Both the position numbers and the translations under genes were made by a program. Source: Sandaracinus amylolyticus (lineage in GTDB: Bacteria; Myxococcota_A; Polyangia; Polyangiales; Sandaracinaceae). Taken from it: a stretch of 64,000 bases of DNA. The stretch's first letter is position 1; every line of letters begins with the position of its first letter. The stretch is from contig NZ_CP070225.1 in assembly GCF_021631985.1 (NCBI RefSeq), positions 8,990,001-9,054,000 of the forward strand. The letters run 5' to 3'. A model generated the notes under the pieces. The model saw only the letters and a list, made by a program, of their open reading frames with translations. It made no database searches and was not told the origin of the DNA. Below, one piece after another: positions 32,602 through 41,015 of the stretch.

Positions 32602-33219
32602 TCACTCGAGCGCGAACGATCCGTAGGTCGGCTTCCCGATCCGCCGGTACACGCTCATCACCACGCCGCTCGGGCTCGTGCTCGAGCGCACCATCGCCAG
32701 CGCGGTCGGCGCCACGCCGGGCTCGAAGAGACGACGGCCGCTCCCGAGCACGATCGGGAACTGCAGCACGTTGAGCTCGTCGATCAGATCGCTCCGCAGC
32801 AGCGTCTGCAGCAGCCCCGCGCTGCCGTGCACCTGGAGCTCGCGCGCGTACTTCTGCTTCAGCGCGGCGACCGCCTCGATCACGTCGCCCTGGATCACGC
32901 TCGAGGCGTTCCACGACGCCTCGCGCCGCGTTCGCGACGCGACGTGCTTCGGCAGCGCGTTGAGCTTCGTCGCGATCGGGTCGTTCGGGTCGGTCACCTT
33001 CGGCCAGTGTCCGGCGAACGTGTCGTAGGTGAAGCGACCGAGCAGGAACGCGTCGGCGCGCGAGAACACGTCGACGATGAACGCGCCCATCGCGTCGTCG
33101 AAGTGGGGCACCACCCAGCCGCCGTGGGTGAACCCTCCGCGCGGGTCCTCCTCGGGCCCGCCGGGTCCCTGCATCACGCCGTCGAGCGTCACGAACGTCG
33201 TCACCGTCAGCTTTCCCAT
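32602..33219 (-). CDS. RibD C-terminal / dihydrofolate-reductase-like protein
   Basis: 205 residues with the typical start KLTVTTFVTLDGVMQGPGG, the middle FLLGRFTYDTFAGHWPK, and the NADPH-side motif ELQVHGSAGLLQTLLRSDLIDEL followed by FPIVLGSGRRLFE. Members bind NADPH but most lack a proven substrate. The promoter region 33243-33271 resembles the ECF-type promoter in front of the DGPF/ECF42 cluster at 53 kb, suggesting common control. A Shine-Dalgarno-like GAGGA precedes the ATG. Confidence 0.88.
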   Translation of the reverse strand: MGKLTVTTFVTLDGVMQGPGGPEEDPRGGFTHGGWVVPHFDDAMGAFIVDVFSRADAFLLGRFTYDTFAGHWPKVTDPNDPIATKLNALPKHVASRTRREASWNASSVIQGDVIEAVAALKQKYARELQVHGSAGLLQTLLRSDLIDELNVLQFPIVLGSGRRLFEPGVAPTALAMVRSSTSPSGVVMSVYRRIGKPTYGSFALE

Positions 33220-33242
33220 CGCGTCCTCGCTTCCTCGTAGAC

Positions 33243-33271
33243 ACGACGAACGGGCGGCGCGGGATCCGACA
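33243..33271 (-). promoter_or_regulatory. ECF-type promoter candidate (TGTCGG - 17 - CGTCGT)
   Basis: On the minus strand TGTCGG (33271-33266) and CGTCGT (33248-33243) are separated by 17 bp. The A-run GCGAAAAAGATCGCGAG lies just upstream. The layout, spacing and A-run match the site at 53164-53192. Transcription would start about 15 bp before the ATG at 33219. Confidence 0.55.
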
Positions 33272-33350
33272 TCGCTCGCGATCTTTTTCGCGTCGCTTGT
33301 GTGCCCTGCTTCGGGACCAACCTCACGGGTGATTCAGCACGGAGCACTCG

Positions 33351-34310
33351 ATGCCTGAGATCGTCCTCGAGCCGGCTGCGCAGGACCTGGCGAACGCCTC
33401 CTCGAAGCCGCCGTTCCTCTACCAGCTCTCGCCGACCGACGCGCGCAAGGTGCTCGACGGCCTGCAGTCCGGCCCGCTCGACCTACCGGCGATCGACGAG
33501 CGGTGGATCACCGTGCCCGCCGACGTCGGCGACGTCCGGGTGCGCATCGTGAAGCCGAAGGGCGTGTCCGGCGCGCTGCCGGTCGTGCTCTACGTGCACG
33601 GCGGCGGCTGGGTCCTCGGCAACGCCATGACCCACGATCGACTGGTGCGCGAGATCGCGGTCGGCGTGCGCGCCGCGGTCGTGTTCGTCGAGTACACGCC
33701 CTCGCCCGAGGCGCACTATCCGGTCGCGATCGAGCAGGTCTACGCGACCGCGCGATGGATCGTGCGCGAGGGCGCGAGCGCCGGGCTCGACGCGAGCCGC
33801 ATGGCGATCGCGGGGGACTCGGTCGGCGGCAACATGACCGCGGCGGTCGCGCTGCTCGCGAAGAAGCGCGGCGACGTGCGCTTCGTGCAGCACTCGATGT
33901 ACTACCCGGTCACCGACGCCGGCATGAACACGCCGAGCTACGCGCAGTTCGCGGCCGGGCCCTTCCTCACCGCGAAGAACATGGAGTGGTTCTGGAACGC
34001 GTACGCGCCCGACGTCGCGAAGCGCTCCGAGATCACCGCGTCGCCGCTGCGCGCGAGCGCCGACGATCTGAAGGGCCTGCCCCCGGCGTTCCTGCTCGTC
34101 GACGAGGCCGACGTGCTGCGCGACGAGGGCGAGGCCTACGCCGCGAAGCTGCGCGAGGCCGGCGTGACGGTCACGACCGTGCGCTACGACGGCATCTGCC
34201 ACGACTTCATGATGCTCAACCCGCTGCGCGACACCCAGGCCGCGAAGGCCGCGACCGCGCAGGCGATCGAGGTGCTGCAGAACGCGCTCGGCACCCGCGC
34301 TCACCAGTAG
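33351..34310 (+). CDS. Alpha/beta hydrolase (hormone-sensitive-lipase type)
   Basis: 319 residues. The oxyanion motif HGGGW is at 83-87, the nucleophile motif GDSVGG at about 155, an acid in LVDEADVLRDEGEAYA and the His in DGICHDFMML. This is the bacterial HSL esterase pattern, acting on short acyl esters. There is no signal peptide. It is divergent from the reductase at 32602 and its end overlaps the ECF sigma factor gene by 10 bp. Substrate not determinable. Confidence 0.9.
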   Translation: MPEIVLEPAAQDLANASSKPPFLYQLSPTDARKVLDGLQSGPLDLPAIDERWITVPADVGDVRVRIVKPKGVSGALPVVLYVHGGGWVLGNAMTHDRLVREIAVGVRAAVVFVEYTPSPEAHYPVAIEQVYATARWIVREGASAGLDASRMAIAGDSVGGNMTAAVALLAKKRGDVRFVQHSMYYPVTDAGMNTPSYAQFAAGPFLTAKNMEWFWNAYAPDVAKRSEITASPLRASADDLKGLPPAFLLVDEADVLRDEGEAYAAKLREAGVTVTTVRYDGICHDFMMLNPLRDTQAAKAATAQAIEVLQNALGTRAHQ

Positions 34311-35278
34311 CGATAGCCGTTCACCCGGAACGGCAGGCCGAGCTCGCGACACACCTCGGCGATCACGTCGGGCGAGAAGAAGTAGTTGCGCAGCCGCGCG
34401 ATGCGGTCGCCCTCGGTCTCGACCGTCATCAGCGCGCGCACCGCCGGGCCGTCCTCGTGGTCGTACCAGAAGACGAGGATCGGCTCGCCGCGGTGGGTGC
34501 GCACCTCGCAGCGCGCGAGGCCGCCGCGATACCCCTCGAGATGCTCGGGCCGCACGCCGCCGCGCTCGTCGTAGGTGATCGGGGAGAGCGATCCCGCGAA
34601 CGATCCGGTGCGCGGATCGCGCGGCATGTCGGGGCCGTACTCGGTCACGACGCCGACGATCTCGACGATCGCTCCGTCGAGCAGGAGCGCCGCGAGGCGA
34701 TCGACGTCGCGTGCGTCGAACGCCTCCTGGAACGCGTCGAGCACGCCGGGCGCGGGCGCGCGTCCGCTCGGCTCGTCGTCGGTCGCCAGCTTGCCTCGTC
34801 CGCGATGCAGCGCTGCCTTCACCGATCCCACCGTCGTCGAGAGGGACTCCGCGATCTCCTCGAGCGAGAGATCGAGCACGTCCTTGAGGACCACCGCCGC
34901 GCGCTCCTGCGGTGCGAGCCGCACCATCAGCGCGCCCGCGGCCTCACGCATCGCGCGCGGCTCGCTCGAGTTCGACGCGACGTCGTCCTGCTCCACGCCG
35001 AGCACCTCGCGCCGCGCGCGGCGGGCCCGGTCGATCCAGAGGTTCGACGCGACGCGGAAGAGCCAGGCGCGCGGCTGCGGCACCTCGTGGAACATCGTGC
35101 CCAGCGTCACGAACGCGCGCGCGAGCGTGTCCTGCACGAGGTCCTCCGCGTCCCACGGGCTGCGGGTGAGGTGCCGGCAGTATCGATGGAGCTCGGGCCG
35201 CACCGGCTCGAACGTGTCGAGGAAGCGCTGCCACGACGTCTTCACGCCGTCGCCGAGGACCACGAGATCGTTCTTCAT
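34301..35278 (-). CDS. ECF sigma factor with C-terminal SnoaL-like domain
   Basis: 325 residues starting MKNDLVVLGDGVK. Region 2 is at about 30-95 (DAEDLVQDTLARAFVTLG) and region 4 at about 125-180 (LSLEEIAESLSTTVGSVKAALHRGR). The remaining ~130 residues form an NTF2/SnoaL-like domain (VLDAFQEAFDARDVDRLAALL onward), as in ECF41-type and related sigma factors where the extension controls activity. Its ATG overlaps the stop of the reductase at 35275 (ATGA), so the two are one operon. No anti-sigma gene is adjacent. Confidence 0.88.
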   Translation of the reverse strand: MKNDLVVLGDGVKTSWQRFLDTFEPVRPELHRYCRHLTRSPWDAEDLVQDTLARAFVTLGTMFHEVPQPRAWLFRVASNLWIDRARRARREVLGVEQDDVASNSSEPRAMREAAGALMVRLAPQERAAVVLKDVLDLSLEEIAESLSTTVGSVKAALHRGRGKLATDDEPSGRAPAPGVLDAFQEAFDARDVDRLAALLLDGAIVEIVGVVTEYGPDMPRDPRTGSFAGSLSPITYDERGGVRPEHLEGYRGGLARCEVRTHRGEPILVFWYDHEDGPAVRALMTVETEGDRIARLRNYFFSPDVIAEVCRELGLPFRVNGYRYW

Positions 35279-35868
35279 CGTCGATCGGGCTCGTAACACA
35301 GCACGACGAGCCGCTGCCCGAGCTGGGTCGTGCGCACCAGCTTCAGCCCGCGCCGCTGCTCGATGCCCTTCCACATCGGGGTCCCGCCGCCGAGCAGCAC
35401 CGGGTGCACGATCAGCCGGTACTCGTCGACGAGATCGAGCGCGCCCAGCGTCGCCACCAGGCCCGCCCCCGCCCACGCGACGATGGGCTTTCCCGGCTGC
35501 TGCTTGAGCTCGCGGATCGTCTCGCCCACCCGATCGTGCACCACGCGGGTGCTCTGCCAGTCGGCGCGCTCGAGGGTGCGCGAGAGCACGATCTTCGGCA
35601 GCGCGTTCATCTTGCGCGCGAACGCGAGATCCGCGGGCGAGCGCGGGTTGCGCTCGGCGTCGGGCCAGTAGCGGAACATCAGCTCGTAGGAGCGCCGCCC
35701 GTAGATCGCGAGCCCCACCGAGTCGATCATCTCGTCGCAGTACTGCTCGAACTGCGGATCGCCGTCGTGGAACCAGTCGAGCTCGCGATTCGGGCCCTCG
35801 ATGTAGCCGTCGAGCGAGACGATCATCGAGACGAAGAGCCGCCGGCCTGCCTGTGCTTCGGTCGTCAT
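35275..35868 (-). CDS. RibD C-terminal / dihydrofolate-reductase-like protein
   Basis: 197 residues, starting at ATG 35868 (MTTEAQAGRRLFVSMIVSLDGYI). Further family marks are LAIYGRRSYELMFRYWPD, a KIVLSRTLERADWQSTRVV stretch and AGLVATLGALDLVDEYRLIVHPVLLGGGTPM. It is the first gene of an operon with the ECF sigma factor (ATGA overlap). It is a distant relative of the protein at 32602, so the window holds two members within 3 kb. Reductase activity is inferred from the family only. Confidence 0.88.
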   Translation of the reverse strand: MTTEAQAGRRLFVSMIVSLDGYIEGPNRELDWFHDGDPQFEQYCDEMIDSVGLAIYGRRSYELMFRYWPDAERNPRSPADLAFARKMNALPKIVLSRTLERADWQSTRVVHDRVGETIRELKQQPGKPIVAWAGAGLVATLGALDLVDEYRLIVHPVLLGGGTPMWKGIEQRRGLKLVRTTQLGQRLVVLCYEPDRR

Positions 35869-35934: not shown

Positions 35935-35977
35935 TGCTTGACAAGCAAGCGTTCCGCCGTGCAAGGAGCGCTTGTCA
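35935..35977. promoter_or_regulatory. Palindromic operator candidate upstream of the mod operon
   Basis: TGCTTGACAAGCA (35935-35947) is a perfect 13-bp palindrome. A further half site GCTTGTCA (35970-35977) repeats its arm and touches the ATG of the HTH regulator. The position suits autoregulation by that protein. AAGGAG for the gene lies between the two sites. Confidence 0.5.
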
Positions 35978-37038
35978 TGTCTCCGAACCGACTGCGCGCG
36001 CTGCGGGAGGCGCGGGGGCTCTCCCAGATCGCGCTCGCCGCGGCGGCGAGCCTCTCGCGGCAGAGCATCGGCGCGATCGAGGCGGGACGGGCGGTGCCGG
36101 GCGTCGACGTCGCGCTGCGCTTGGCGCGCGTGCTCGACACGACGGTCGAGGAGCTCTTCGGGGCCGCGCCGAGCGAGCAGACGATCTCGACCGAGCCGTG
36201 GGGCGCGACGCGTCCCGGTCGGGTCGCGCTCGCGAAGATCGGCGGGCGCTGGGTCTCGTACGCGCTGCACGGCGGCGCGCTGCGCGCGGCCGACGGGATC
36301 GCGGGCGCGCCGGCGAAGGGCCGGGTCGCCGTCGAGCCGGTGCGCCCGATCGCGGAGAGCGCGGAGAACCTGATCGTGATGGGCTGCGCCGCCGCGCTCG
36401 GCGTCCTCGCCGCGCGATCGTCGCGCGTGGTGTGGATCCCGAGCTCGAGCACCCGCGCGCTCGAGGCGCTCGCGTCGCGCCGCACCCACCTCGCGGGCGT
36501 GCACCTCGTCGACGGCCGCACCGGCGAGGCGAACGTGCCCGACGTGCGCCGCCACGCGGGCGAGGGGCGCTTCGTGCTGATCACGCTCGCGCGCTGGGAG
36601 GCGGGGCTGGTGATCGCGCCCGAGCGCGCGAAGACGATCCGCGGGCCCGGCGATCTCGGGCGCCGGGGGATCCGCATCGTCACCCGCGAGCCCGGCTCGG
36701 GCGCGCGACGCCTGCTCGATCGCGCGCTGCGCGACGCGGGGTGCGCGCCCCCGAGCTTCCAGGCGAGCGGTCACCTCGAGGTCGCGCACGCGGTCTCGCT
36801 CGGCGCCGCCGACGCCGGCATCGCGACCCGCGACGCGGCGATCGCGTACGGGCTCGACTTCGTCGCGCTCGCCGAGGAGCGCTACGACCTCGTGGTGCCG
36901 CGCGCGCTGCTCGCGGATCCGCGGGTCGAGCGCTTCTTCGACGTGATGACGGCGGGCCCCTCGCGCCGCGAGCTCGCGGCGCTGGGCTACGACGTGAGCT
37001 CGTGCGGCACGCGCGTCGCGGAGGTGAGCGCGGCATGA
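35977..37038 (+). CDS. HTH (XRE-type) regulator with periplasmic-binding-protein-like ligand domain
   Basis: 353 residues. Residues 4-57 are a Cro/CI helix-turn-helix (LRALREARGLSQIALAAAASLSRQSIGAIEAG). From about 95 the protein has a type-2 PBP-like domain (VVWIPSSSTRALEALASRRTHLAGVHLVD; REPGSGARRLLDRALRDAG), the family linked to molybdate or tungstate sensing in several bacteria. It heads an operon with an outer-membrane barrel and modABC, and its stop overlaps the next start (ATGA). It is therefore likely a one-component oxyanion sensor controlling its own operon through the upstream palindrome. Confidence 0.88.
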   Translation: MSPNRLRALREARGLSQIALAAAASLSRQSIGAIEAGRAVPGVDVALRLARVLDTTVEELFGAAPSEQTISTEPWGATRPGRVALAKIGGRWVSYALHGGALRAADGIAGAPAKGRVAVEPVRPIAESAENLIVMGCAAALGVLAARSSRVVWIPSSSTRALEALASRRTHLAGVHLVDGRTGEANVPDVRRHAGEGRFVLITLARWEAGLVIAPERAKTIRGPGDLGRRGIRIVTREPGSGARRLLDRALRDAGCAPPSFQASGHLEVAHAVSLGAADAGIATRDAAIAYGLDFVALAEERYDLVVPRALLADPRVERFFDVMTAGPSRRELAALGYDVSSCGTRVAEVSAA

Positions 37039-38396
37039 GGGCGATCGCGCTCCTCGTGCTGCTCGTCGCGGGCAGCGCGCAAGCGCAAGCCACCGAGCGC
37101 CGTCCGTGGCGCTTCGTCGAGGCGGTCGGGGCGCCATCGTGGCTCGGCCTCGGGCTCGAGCACCGCGCGCGCTTCGAGCACCTCGCGAACGACTTCCGCG
37201 CGACCGCGATCGGCGACTCGACCGCGCTCTCGCTGCGCACGCTCGCCTCCGCGGAGCTGCGCTTCGAGCCGCTCTCGATCGCCGTCGAGGCCCAGGACTC
37301 GCGCGCATTCGCCACCGAGCCGACGCCGCTCAACCCGACGATCGTCGACGCGCTCGAGCTCTTGCGCGCATACGCGTCGCTGCGCCTCCCGAACGCGCTC
37401 GAGCCCGGCGATCACCTCGCGATCTCCCTCGGGCGCATGACCCTCGACGTCGGCAGCCGGCGGCTCGTCGCGCGCAACGACTTCCGCAACACCATCAACA
37501 GCTTCACCGGGCTCGACCTCGCGTGGTCGAGCGCGAGCGGACACGCGGTGCGCTTCTTCGCGGTGGTGCCGGTGGTGCGCCTGCCGAGCGACGCGAGCGC
37601 GCTCGCCGACAACACGATCGAGCTCGATCGCGAGAACCTCGACGCGCTCTTCTGGGGCGTGGTCTACGGCACGCCGCTGCTCGCGCTCGACGTGCAGGTC
37701 GAGGCCTACCTCTTCGAGCTGAACGAACGCGACGGCGCGACCGCGCCCTCGTCGGATCGCCGACTCTACACGCCGGGCCTCCGCCTGCTCCGCGCGCCCG
37801 CCCCCGAACGTCTCGATCTGCAGCTCGAGCTGATGCTCCAGCTCGGGCGCTCGCGCGCGACCGCGGCGGCCACCGACACCGACGACCTCTCGCACCTCGC
37901 GTTCTCGGGGCACGTCTCGCTCGGGTATCGGTTCGCGGTCGCGTGGTCGCCGCGCCTCGTGCTCCAGTACGACTACGCCACCGGTGACGAGTCGCCGAGC
38001 GACGACGCGAACAACCGCTTCGATCCGCTCTTCGGCGCGCGGCGCTTCGACTTCGGACCGACCGGGCTCTACGGCGCGATCGCGCGCAGCAACGTCAGCT
38101 CGCCGGGGGCACGCGTCGAGATCGTGCCCGATCGCACGATCGACGCCTTCGTCGGATATCGCCTCGTGTGGCTCGCGTCGCCGCGCGATGCGTGGACCAC
38201 GGCGGGCCTGCGCGATCCGAGCGGGCTCTCCGGCGCGTTCGTCGGACAGCAGCTCGAAGGGCGCGTCCGGTGGCAGCCGTTCCCGCGCAACCTCGCGCTC
38301 GAGCTCGGCGCGGCGTGCCTCTTCCGCGGCGAGCGTCCCGGTGTGCGCTCCGAGCCCGCCGCGTACGTCTACAGCCAGATCACGACGGGCCTCTGA
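37035..38396 (+). CDS. Outer-membrane beta-barrel of the alginate-export family
   Basis: 453 residues with a signal peptide (MRAIALLVLLVAGSAQAQA). The rest alternates amphipathic strands and turns, with GLEHRARFEHLANDFR, GRMTLDVGSRRLVARNDFRNTINSF and ATGDESPSDDANNRFDPLFG, all typical of the AlgE-like alginate-export family (PF13372). The barrel sits between regulator and modA with 4-bp and 1-bp overlaps, so it belongs to the transport operon. The best guess is a pore that admits molybdate or a chelate; alginate export is unlikely because no alginate genes are present. Confidence 0.82.
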   Translation: MRAIALLVLLVAGSAQAQATERRPWRFVEAVGAPSWLGLGLEHRARFEHLANDFRATAIGDSTALSLRTLASAELRFEPLSIAVEAQDSRAFATEPTPLNPTIVDALELLRAYASLRLPNALEPGDHLAISLGRMTLDVGSRRLVARNDFRNTINSFTGLDLAWSSASGHAVRFFAVVPVVRLPSDASALADNTIELDRENLDALFWGVVYGTPLLALDVQVEAYLFELNERDGATAPSSDRRLYTPGLRLLRAPAPERLDLQLELMLQLGRSRATAAATDTDDLSHLAFSGHVSLGYRFAVAWSPRLVLQYDYATGDESPSDDANNRFDPLFGARRFDFGPTGLYGAIARSNVSSPGARVEIVPDRTIDAFVGYRLVWLASPRDAWTTAGLRDPSGLSGAFVGQQLEGRVRWQPFPRNLALELGAACLFRGERPGVRSEPAAYVYSQITTGL

Positions 38397-39139
38397 TGAC
38401 GACCATCCTGCGTGCGATCCTGGTGATCGCCCTCCTCGCCGCGTGCAGCGCGCCTCCACGCGAGGAGCGCCTCGTGGTGTTCGCGGCGTCCTCGCTGCGC
38501 GATGCGTTCACCGAGATCGGCGACGACTTCGAGCGCGCGCATCCCGACGTCGAGCTCACGTTCCAGTTCGCGGGGACGCAGCAGCTGCGCGCGCAGATCG
38601 AGCAGGGCGCGCCCGCCGACGTGCTCGCGTCCGCCGACGTGCAGCACGTGGACGAGCTGGTGCGCGCCGGGCACGTCGCAGCGCCGATCGTCTTCGCGCG
38701 CAACGAGCCGGTGATCGTCGTGGGGCGCGACGTGCCGGTGCGCTCGTTCGACGATCTGCCCGGGGCCGGACGCATCGTGATCGGCGCGGAGACGGTGCCG
38801 ATCGGGCGCTACACCCGGCGCATCCTCGAGCGCGCGCCCGCCGACTTCCGCGCGCAGGTCGAGGCCCACGTCGTGTCGAACGAGCTCGACGTGCGCGCGG
38901 TGCTCGCGAAGGTGCGCCTCGGCGAGGCCGACGCCGGCATCGTGTACCGGACCGACGCGCGCATCGCGGGCGACGACGTGCGGGTGGTGAGCATCCCGCC
39001 CGAGCGAAACGTGATCGCCGAGTACCCGATCGCCATCACGTCGCACCCCGCGCACCCGACGCTGGCGCGCGAATTCGTCGAGCTCGTCCGCTCGGAGCGC
39101 GGCCAGCAGGTGCTCGCCGAGCACGGCTTCGCGCCATGA
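38396..39139 (+). CDS. modA: Molybdate ABC transporter substrate-binding lipoprotein
   Basis: 247 residues beginning at an ATG that shares one base with the previous stop. The export signal ends in a lipobox (ILVIALLAACSAPP), so the protein is probably membrane-tethered rather than free in the periplasm. ModA marks include VFAASSLRDAFTEIGDDFE, FQFAGTQQLRAQIEQGAPADV, VLASADVQHVDELV and EADAGIVYRTDA. It captures molybdate or tungstate and delivers it to ModB. The modA-modB junction is an ATGA overlap. Confidence 0.92.
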   Translation: MTTILRAILVIALLAACSAPPREERLVVFAASSLRDAFTEIGDDFERAHPDVELTFQFAGTQQLRAQIEQGAPADVLASADVQHVDELVRAGHVAAPIVFARNEPVIVVGRDVPVRSFDDLPGAGRIVIGAETVPIGRYTRRILERAPADFRAQVEAHVVSNELDVRAVLAKVRLGEADAGIVYRTDARIAGDDVRVVSIPPERNVIAEYPIAITSHPAHPTLAREFVELVRSERGQQVLAEHGFAP

Positions 39140-39897
39140 GCCGCGCGCAGCACCTGCTCGTCGCCGCGCTCGGCGGCGCGCTCGCGATCTTCCTCGTGCT
39201 TCCGCTGGTCGCGCTGGTCGCGACCACGAGCGATCTCGCAGCGGGACTCGCGAGCCCGCTGGTCGCGCCCGCGCTCCGGCTCAGCCTGCTCACCACGCTG
39301 GTCAGCCTCGCGATCGTCGTGGTGCTCGGGACGCCGCTCGCCTGGGCGCTGCGCAGCGCGCGCGGCCCGCTGGCGCGCGTCGTCGAGACGATCGTGCAGC
39401 TCCCGATCGTCGTGCCTCCCGCGGTCGCGGGGGTCGCGCTCCTTCTCGCGTTCGGCCGTCGCGGGCTCGTGGGGTCGTGGCTGGGATCGCCGGCGTTCAC
39501 GACGGTCGCGGTGGTGATGGCCGAGGTGTTCGTGTCGGCCCCGTTCTTCGTGCAGGCCGCGCTCGGCGCGTTCCGCCGGGTGGACGAGCGCCTGATCGTC
39601 GTGGCGCGCACCTTCGGCGCGTCGCCGCTGCGAGTGCTGGTGCGGGTCGCGCTGCCCCTCGCGGCACCGGGCCTGCTCGCGGGCGCGGCGATGTCGTGGG
39701 CGCGCGCGCTGGGAGAGTTCGGCGCGACCCTGATGTTCGCGGGCAACCTCGAGGGCGTGACCCAGACGATGCCGCTCGCGATCTACACCGCGATGGAGTC
39801 GGACCTGCGCGCCGCGCAGGCGATGTCGATCGTGCTCGTCCTCGTCGCGTCGGTGCTCTTCGTGGCGATGCGCACGCTGCTGCGGCGGACGTCGTGA
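39136..39897 (+). CDS. modB: Molybdate ABC transporter permease
   Basis: 253 residues with about six membrane helices. The permease EAA-like loop is visible as ARTFGASPLRVLVRVALPLAAPGLLAG, followed by SWARALGEFGATLMFAGN, the highly conserved ModB/CysT signature. It is a homodimeric inner-membrane channel. It overlaps modA by 4 bp and modC by 4 bp (GTGA). Confidence 0.94.
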   Translation: MSRAQHLLVAALGGALAIFLVLPLVALVATTSDLAAGLASPLVAPALRLSLLTTLVSLAIVVVLGTPLAWALRSARGPLARVVETIVQLPIVVPPAVAGVALLLAFGRRGLVGSWLGSPAFTTVAVVMAEVFVSAPFFVQAALGAFRRVDERLIVVARTFGASPLRVLVRVALPLAAPGLLAGAAMSWARALGEFGATLMFAGNLEGVTQTMPLAIYTAMESDLRAAQAMSIVLVLVASVLFVAMRTLLRRTS

Positions 39898-40607
39898 GCC
39901 TGCATGCCCGCATCGAGGCGCGGGTGGGGCGCCTGGTGATCGACGTCGAGCTCGACACCGGACCGGGCGTGCTCGCGATCGTCGGGCCCAACGGCGCGGG
40001 CAAGACCACGCTGCTCTCGCTGCTGCTCGGCGTGGTGCCGGTCACGCGCGGGCGCGTCGAGGTCGGTGGGGTCGTGCTGCTCGACACGAGCGCGTCGCTC
40101 GATGTGCCGGTCGAGGCGCGTCGTCTCGGCTACGCGCCCCAGGACCACGCGCTCTTCCCGCACCTCGACGTGCGCGGGAACGTGGAGTTCGCGGTGTCGA
40201 GCGCATTGCCGCGCGCCGAGCGGGCGCGCCGGGTCGACGAGGTGCTGCGCGATCTCCGGATCGAGCACCTCGCGTCACGAAGGCCGAGCACGCTCTCGGG
40301 CGGGGAGCGCCAGCGCGTCGCGCTGGCGCGTGCGCTCTCGATCTCGCCGCGCGCGCTGCTCCTCGACGAGCCGCTCGCCGCGCTCGACGCCCGCGCTCGC
40401 CGCGAGGTGCGCGACTTCCTCGCGACCACGCTGCGCACCCTCGCGATCCCCAGCATCGTCGTCACCCACGACGCGGCCGAGGCGCGCGCGCTGGGCCAGC
40501 GCATCGCGGTGATGGAGGCGGGACGCATCGTGCAGCAGGGCACGTGGGACGAGCTCGTCGCGGCCCCGGCGACGCCCTTCGTCGCCGAGCTAACTGCAGA
40601 CGCCTGA
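39894..40607 (+). CDS. modC: Molybdate ABC transporter ATPase (short, no MOP domain)
   Basis: GTG at 39894 overlaps the modB stop. The 237-residue protein has Walker A GPNGAGKTT, Q-loop YAPQDHALFPHL, signature LSGGERQRVALARAL, Walker B ALLLDEPLAALD and the switch His in VVTHDAAEA. Canonical ModC is about 350 residues with a C-terminal molybdate-binding MOP domain. That domain is absent here, so feedback inhibition by molybdate is not expected in this protein. Its end overlaps the convergent gene by 18 bp. Confidence 0.93.
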   Translation: MSLHARIEARVGRLVIDVELDTGPGVLAIVGPNGAGKTTLLSLLLGVVPVTRGRVEVGGVVLLDTSASLDVPVEARRLGYAPQDHALFPHLDVRGNVEFAVSSALPRAERARRVDEVLRDLRIEHLASRRPSTLSGGERQRVALARALSISPRALLLDEPLAALDARARREVRDFLATTLRTLAIPSIVVTHDAAEARALGQRIAVMEAGRIVQQGTWDELVAAPATPFVAELTADA

Positions 40608-41015
40608 TCGGCAGACGCTGGTCCCGCAGCACCCGGTCGACGTGTCGCACGCCTGGCCCGACTCCGCGCAGCACACCCTCCGGGTGCCCGAGGTCGACGT
40701 CGTCGCGCAGATCAGCCGCCCGCAGCAGTCCTCGCCGTCGAGGAACGAGCAGGGATGGGTCGCCTGCCCGCAGCACACCCTGCGCTCGGGCCCCGAGGTC
40801 GCGGTGGACGCGCACGCCAGGTCCCCACAGCACTCCGACCCGCTCGCGCAGGCGCGCGTCGCCTCGATGCACATCCACGCGTCGGGCGGCGCGTCGATCG
40901 CGCCGTCGCTCGCGCGCGCGTCCATCTCGTCGCCGCCGTCGAACGGAAGGAGCCTCGGCGTCGTGCACGCCGCGAGGAGCAGCGAGACGAGCAGCGCTGT
41001 CGAGGATCGGTGCAT
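40590..41015 (-). CDS. Small Cys-rich lipoprotein with three knot-like repeats
   Basis: 141 residues. The lipoprotein signal is MHRSSTALLVSLLLAAC. After an Asp-rich linker come three ~25-residue repeats each with the pattern C-x(6)-C-x(5)-CCG-x-x-x-C (for example ASGSECCGDLACAS, DGEDCCGRLICAT, DTSTGCCGTSVCR). Adjacent Cys pairs and small loops suggest disulfide-knotted modules outside the cell. Its function is unknown, and it lies opposite the operon end and divergent from the kinase at 41058. Confidence 0.78.
   Translation of the reverse strand: MHRSSTALLVSLLLAACTTPRLLPFDGGDEMDARASDGAIDAPPDAWMCIEATRACASGSECCGDLACASTATSGPERRVCCGQATHPCSFLDGEDCCGRLICATTSTSGTRRVCCAESGQACDTSTGCCGTSVCRSGVCS

Follow-up and report, generated by a model that had tools for sequence, protein, structure and literature searches.

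A ModABC operon with an Alginate_exp-family outer-membrane barrel and an Xre-PBP regulator in Sandaracinus amylolyticus

The DNA analysed here, a stretch of 64,000 nucleotides of the Sandaracinus amylolyticus contig NZ_CP070225.1 (positions 8,990,001 to 9,054,000; hereafter the window), contains a real and recurrent variant of the ModABC system, in which the transporter is encoded together with a TaoR-like sensor and an outer-membrane barrel of its own. The modABC genes themselves are ordinary and the regulator is also of a known kind; the parts of interest are the partnership with the barrel and the suspected oxyanion role of the Alginate_exp family. We consider it likely that the five genes form one operon for the acquisition of molybdate, and probably of tungstate, across both membranes, by means of a barrel channel, ModABC and an Xre-PBP sensor. 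The barrel would be a passive, porin-like channel for anions, lined with arginines, through which the outer membrane becomes more permeable to the oxyanion; the lipoprotein ModA would capture the oxyanion in the periplasm and ModBC would pump it inward. The cytoplasmic Xre-PBP sensor, encoded by the first gene, would answer bound molybdate or tungstate and control its own operon from a palindromic promoter, taking over the sensing that elsewhere falls to MOP domains or ModE, and the barrel would be a module optionally added to a regulator-modABC operon that is itself widespread. The direct basis of this proposal is the gene content, the overlaps, the family memberships, the recurrent linkage, the modularity and a conserved promoter motif; the channel function, the substrate, the passive transport, the ligand and the mode of regulation are what we infer. 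The crossing of the outer membrane by trace oxyanions, molybdate included, is usually ascribed to general porins, and a barrel that recurs in mod operons, and is gained or lost as a module among close relatives, offers a direct test of a dedicated route.

Gene content of the operon

Five genes on the + strand occupy positions 35977-40607 in the order regulator, barrel, modA, modB and modC, overlapping by 4, 1, 4 and 4 bp, just as an earlier note on this DNA had described a five-gene set joined by overlaps of 1-4 bp; the element as a whole is taken to start at 35935, with an upstream palindrome, and its first coding base is 35977. The first gene (35977-37038, 353 aa) encodes a one-component regulator with an Xre-type HTH_3 domain (PF01381) and a PBP_like domain (PF12727), and the second (37035-38396, 453 aa) an outer-membrane beta-barrel of the Alginate_exp family (PF13372) with a signal peptide. 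ModA, the molybdate-binding protein (38396-39139, 247 aa), matches the NCBIfam model TIGR01256 with 146.3 bits against a cut-off of 62.5, and its closest solved structures are ModA proteins; its N-terminus, MTTILRAILVIALLAAC-S, carries a lipobox (LLAAC-S), which bears out the claim of the same note that it is a lipoprotein. The ModB permease (39136-39897, 253 aa) reaches 206 bits with TIGR02141 (NCBIfam cut-off 182.6) and is the sole ModB above the cut-off in the whole genome. The ModC ATPase (39894-40607, 237 aa, GTG start) matches TIGR02142 in part, with 206.4 bits, under the cut-off of 285.05, and over positions 2-228 of the 353 of the model. Because this match stops at position 228, and since neither Pfam nor NCBIfam returns a TOBE/MOP match in ModC, the protein lacks the C-terminal MOP domain, as had been noted; its ATPase domain is complete and the regulatory domain alone is missing.

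In comparison with the ModABC/ModE system of the E. coli type, the ModA, ModB and ModC families and their gene order are the same, whereas the window genome has no ModE above the cut-off, ModC is devoid of MOP, and both an Xre-PBP regulator and an outer-membrane barrel are encoded within the operon. The flanking genes encode RibD_C proteins, a sigma factor, a hydrolase and a kinase. Just upstream, on the - strand (32602-35868), lie the genes of two RibD_C-domain proteins, one of which overlaps the gene of a sigma-70-family factor by 4 bp, and on the other side a small ORF encoding a Cys-rich, lipoprotein-like product (40590-41015, - strand), with no Pfam match, shares an 18-bp end overlap with the 3' end of modC.

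Recurrence and modularity of the barrel in Myxococcota

The neighbourhoods of the barrel were surveyed in 33 Myxococcota genomes carrying homologues of it, namely 26 of the 377 sampled across the phylum and 7 additional ones from the 11 found among 183 in the order. Up to 20 kb were fetched around the homologues, genes were called by a simple codon-model caller, which reproduced the ORFs of the five window genes, and neighbours were labelled by BLAST and by Pfam/NCBIfam. The survey, which had been proposed in the earlier note as a check on the barrel-mod association, showed that the linkage recurs and that the two are not separated in all relatives. In particular, the same five-gene order is present in L122 (genome G421), with 4-bp overlaps on both sides of the barrel, and in L033 (G056), with short gaps between the genes, and a variant occurs in L034 (G115), where regulator, barrel, substrate-binding protein, permease and ATPase genes overlap and the ATPase is WtpC-like. 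As for the remark of the note that it did not know the exact order from well-studied systems, the order is not confined to the window, being present in at least two other genomes besides the variant.

Other arrangements are barrel-modABC (L124 and L054), modB-modC-barrel (L052), modA-barrel (L053), a barrel about 2 kb from modABC (L050 and L051), a TupB-type tungstate permease convergent to the barrel (L043) and a regulator-barrel pair only (L055); in L001 the barrel does not adjoin mod genes. Of 31 barrel-bearing Myxococcota genomes, 10 have a permease of the ModB/TupB type no more than 4 kb from the barrel, against 0.07 expected from the density of such permeases (45 matches in 208 Mb), for a Poisson P of about 5e-19 that is to be read with the genomes not being independent. 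In the barrel tree, the window protein falls within a fully supported clade (100/100) of 14 rows, 7 of which are mod-linked, and since at least five arrangements are found in several families, shared ancestry alone is an unlikely explanation. More than half of the barrel loci have no oxyanion gene adjoining, in some cases through contig ends. The barrel is no chance neighbour of the mod genes, because its order with them is found in two further genomes, with a variant in a third, and because of the permease linkage in 10 of 31 genomes. Outside Myxococcota, two Pseudomonadota have the barrel divergent from modA (on an Agarilytica plasmid) and from modABC (on a Methylosinus plasmid); the Methylosinus barrel (L145:4734-7196) is 820 aa long and has an OMP_b-brl domain as a second domain at its C-terminus.

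The barrel is not essential to the operon, as many relatives do without it: the regulator-modABC set without a barrel is found in at least 12 of them (L092, L093, L094, L097, L101, L102, L103, L108, L109, L111, L136 and L141). The five-gene order amounts to the regulator-modABC operon of four genes, which is common in the phylum, plus a barrel module inserted in the order after the regulator and before modA. The most telling of these relatives is the congener G177 (L092), whose regulator is 91% identical to that of the window and whose ModA is about 84% identical; no barrel is found anywhere in its genome at E<=1e-15. Over its first 42 bases, the modA of G177 agrees with the beginning of the window barrel gene at 33 positions, the highest score among 153 signal-like gene starts (mean 17), and the sequence switches to that of modA at the lipobox (L092:7474-9263). 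The start of modA in G177 is probably the scar of a deletion running from one signal-peptide coding region to the other, by which the first codons of the barrel gene were fused to modA, with the reservations of the stretch being short and similar signal peptides being possible by chance in GC-rich DNA. Such a scar would imply loss in G177, so the five-gene operon may be ancestral in the genus. The horizontal insertion of the barrel into the window operon was also considered and set aside, the signal-sequence scar favouring loss in G177.

The barrel protein and the explanations of its role

The window barrel matches PF13372 over nearly its whole length (E=2.5e-50, 171.9 bits against a cut-off of 25.2, positions 2-379 of 395), and this is its sole Pfam match, with neither a TonB plug domain nor a Porin_O_P match in Pfam; passive diffusion is proposed because of the missing plug. 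It contains 45 arginines and 0 lysines, and in an alignment of 12 barrel relatives arginine accounts for 17 of the 62 invariant columns against 6.2 expected (p=1.4e-5). Anion channels, OprP and AlgE among them, typically have lumens rich in arginine; other porins for anions or carboxylates should show the same enrichment, which does not identify the substrate. Searched with a sequence profile of the barrel clade, the PDB yielded no chain at E up to 1, and an AlphaFold model built on a 2-row alignment (window and L001) was of very low confidence, with a pLDDT of 29 and a pTM of 0.26. The best reading of these sequences is that the barrel would be a dedicated, Arg-rich, passive anion channel for molybdate/tungstate.

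Several known systems are comparable. AlgE gives its name to the family that the window barrel matches full-length (Alginate Export OMPP family, PF13372, TCDB 1.B.13), and differs in that the window barrel has no alginate or polysaccharide genes nearby and is linked to molybdate transport. The phosphate-selective porins OprP/OprO (TCDB 1.B.5) belong to a different family; they are substrate-dedicated anion porins paired with an ABC importer, and the proposed barrel would work likewise. In Pseudomonas aeruginosa, as described in PMC8602904, molybdate is obtained by a T6SS-ModA-IcmP route made of a secreted ModA and a metalloproteinase outer-membrane protein (Wang et al., 2021); a special outer-membrane step for molybdate is common to both cases, and the window uses instead a porin-like barrel within the mod operon. 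In Bacteroides thetaiotaomicron, the alginate export family protein BT1414 belongs to the nrfAH operon for nitrite reduction (BT1414-BT1418; PMC10434189), and so the family is again found in an oxyanion operon, devoted to nitrite respiration rather than to molybdate transport, with a barrel role that is putative in both.

Barrels of the same family adjoin other oxyanion genes. In the genome of the window, the gene of a second Alginate_exp barrel comes immediately after nitrate ABC transporter genes of the NtrB/NtrCD type and before corA (L059:6309-10546), and that of a third is flanked by a hemerythrin gene and SCO1, with a copper nitrite reductase in the vicinity (L058:8265-13301). A SulP-family sulfate permease adjoins the barrel on the same strand in L044:532-3719 and L048:7287-10634, overlapping it in L044. 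On plasmids of Pseudomonadota, the barrels are found in chromate (chrBA) and arsenic (ars) clusters (L143, L147 and L144): the barrel follows chrB-chrA-sod in Sphingobium xenophagum, is divergent from chrBA in S. yanoikuyae and ends an ars operon in Asticcacaulis (L144), where it is annotated as two overlapping ORFs. Plasmid barrels are also found after a CusA-type RND pump, and all 10 barrels scanned match PF13372. Two CusA-type RND operons end with one ORF (L146:4464-5996 and L151:3464-4996) in which an EamA-like transporter domain and a truncated Alginate_exp barrel are fused.

It may be that PF13372 consists mainly of outer-membrane channels for small inorganic oxyanions (molybdate, tungstate, sulfate, nitrate, nitrite, chromate and arsenate), and that each of these dedicated channels is encoded together with an inner-membrane transporter or a reductase of its own, across Myxococcota, Pseudomonadota and Bacteroidota, with the window operon as the molybdate version; we hold this generalization to be evenly balanced, several PF13372 barrels being without an oxyanion neighbour and plasmids being rich in resistance genes. 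In a partial coverage of the literature, which makes this weak evidence, no paper was found that links PF13372 to molybdate or chromate or states the oxyanion pattern. If the pattern is true across the family, many annotations as 'alginate export family protein' would need a new functional label, and PF13372 would offer matched pairs of channel and transporter in which the discrimination of similarly sized oxyanions by barrels could be studied.

The same variety of neighbours bears on what the barrel does in the window. That PF13372 is linked to many different oxyanions, that orphan barrels of the family adjoin unrelated genes and that closely related operons do without it would all suit a general small-anion porin, co-expressed in anion operons and raising the overall anion permeability with no preference for molybdate. 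We regard this as possible, and clearly less probable than a dedicated channel, as the repeated and variously arranged mod/tup linkage and the overlapping genes in the window, L034 and L122 speak for a specific benefit. The name of the family, and the presence of its barrels in chrBA, ars and RND metal-efflux plasmid clusters, could instead suggest an exporter, either a pore for alginate or polysaccharide secretion or the outer-membrane part of an oxyanion detoxification (efflux) system; this is improbable, since all the partners in the window are importers (ModABC), no polysaccharide genes are adjacent and plasmids are biased towards resistance genes.

The identity of the substrate admits two further explanations. 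Tungstate, or another group-6 oxyanion, might be the true substrate rather than molybdate: TaoR-type PBP_like regulators control tungstoenzymes and Mo/W transport (PMC11980592), the ATPase of L034 is WtpC-like and the permease of L043 is TupB-type. This is rather unlikely for the window, where the scores of ModA and ModB exceed the curated cut-offs for molybdate and fall well short of those for WtpA/WtpB and TupB. The import of a molybdenum chelate (metallophore) instead of the free oxyanion, which had been suggested in the earlier note, would account for an outer-membrane protein in the operon, and a low environmental molybdate would make chelates plausible by inference only. It has become highly improbable, as the barrel is of the porin-type PF13372 only, with no TonB-dependent plug, the genes next door encode a sigma factor, RibD_C proteins and a kinase and none for metallophore synthesis, and relatives of the barrel adjoin systems for free inorganic oxyanions.

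The regulator and the promoter region

The regulator combines HTH_3 (1.6e-14) with PBP_like PF12727 (1.2e-51) in Pfam, and its homologues head modABC operons across Myxococcota whether the barrel is present or absent. It does not match TIGR00637, the DNA-binding profile of ModE, of which the whole genome has no match above the cut-off. According to PMC11980592, TaoR (Rajeev et al., 2019) has HTH and PBP-like domains, PBP_like regulators of its type control tungstoenzymes and Mo/W transport, and TaoR-like proteins carry HTH_17. The regulator of the operon is likewise a one-component protein with a PBP-like domain, linked to Mo/W transport genes; unlike TaoR-like proteins, it has no HTH_17 match in Pfam, matching HTH_3/HTH_31 (Xre type) instead, and it has no TOBE domain. 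The earlier suggestion that the PBP domain may sense molybdate or tungstate directly is in keeping with TaoR, since this characterised regulator has HTH and PBP-like domains, and by this analogy the domain is a plausible Mo/W sensor.

Upstream of the regulator, a 13-bp palindrome, TGCTTGACAAGCA, with a TTGAC -35-like element (35935-35947) is a candidate operator/promoter, and a second half-site, GCTTGTCATG (35970-35979), extends into the start codon and is the partner of 35939-35946. The two form a perfect 8-bp inverted repeat, TGACAAGC/GCTTGTCA, at 35939-35946 and 35970-35977, spanning the start of the regulator gene. The congener G177 has an identical palindrome, equally far from the start codon, and both half-sites are exactly common to the window and G177. 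CTTGAC is found upstream of 8 of the 18 regulator homologues and of 11 of the 626 control genes (p=4e-9); for TGTCAT, which reaches into the start codon, the counts are 7 of 18 homologues and 6 of 626 controls. The simplest reading of these motifs would be a promoter-operator with an almost leaderless transcript and autoregulation by the first gene. A further motif, TTACAT, is present in 4 of 18 regulator upstreams (L097, L102, L103 and L111) and in 1 of 626 controls, hinting at a second type of operator in other lineages.
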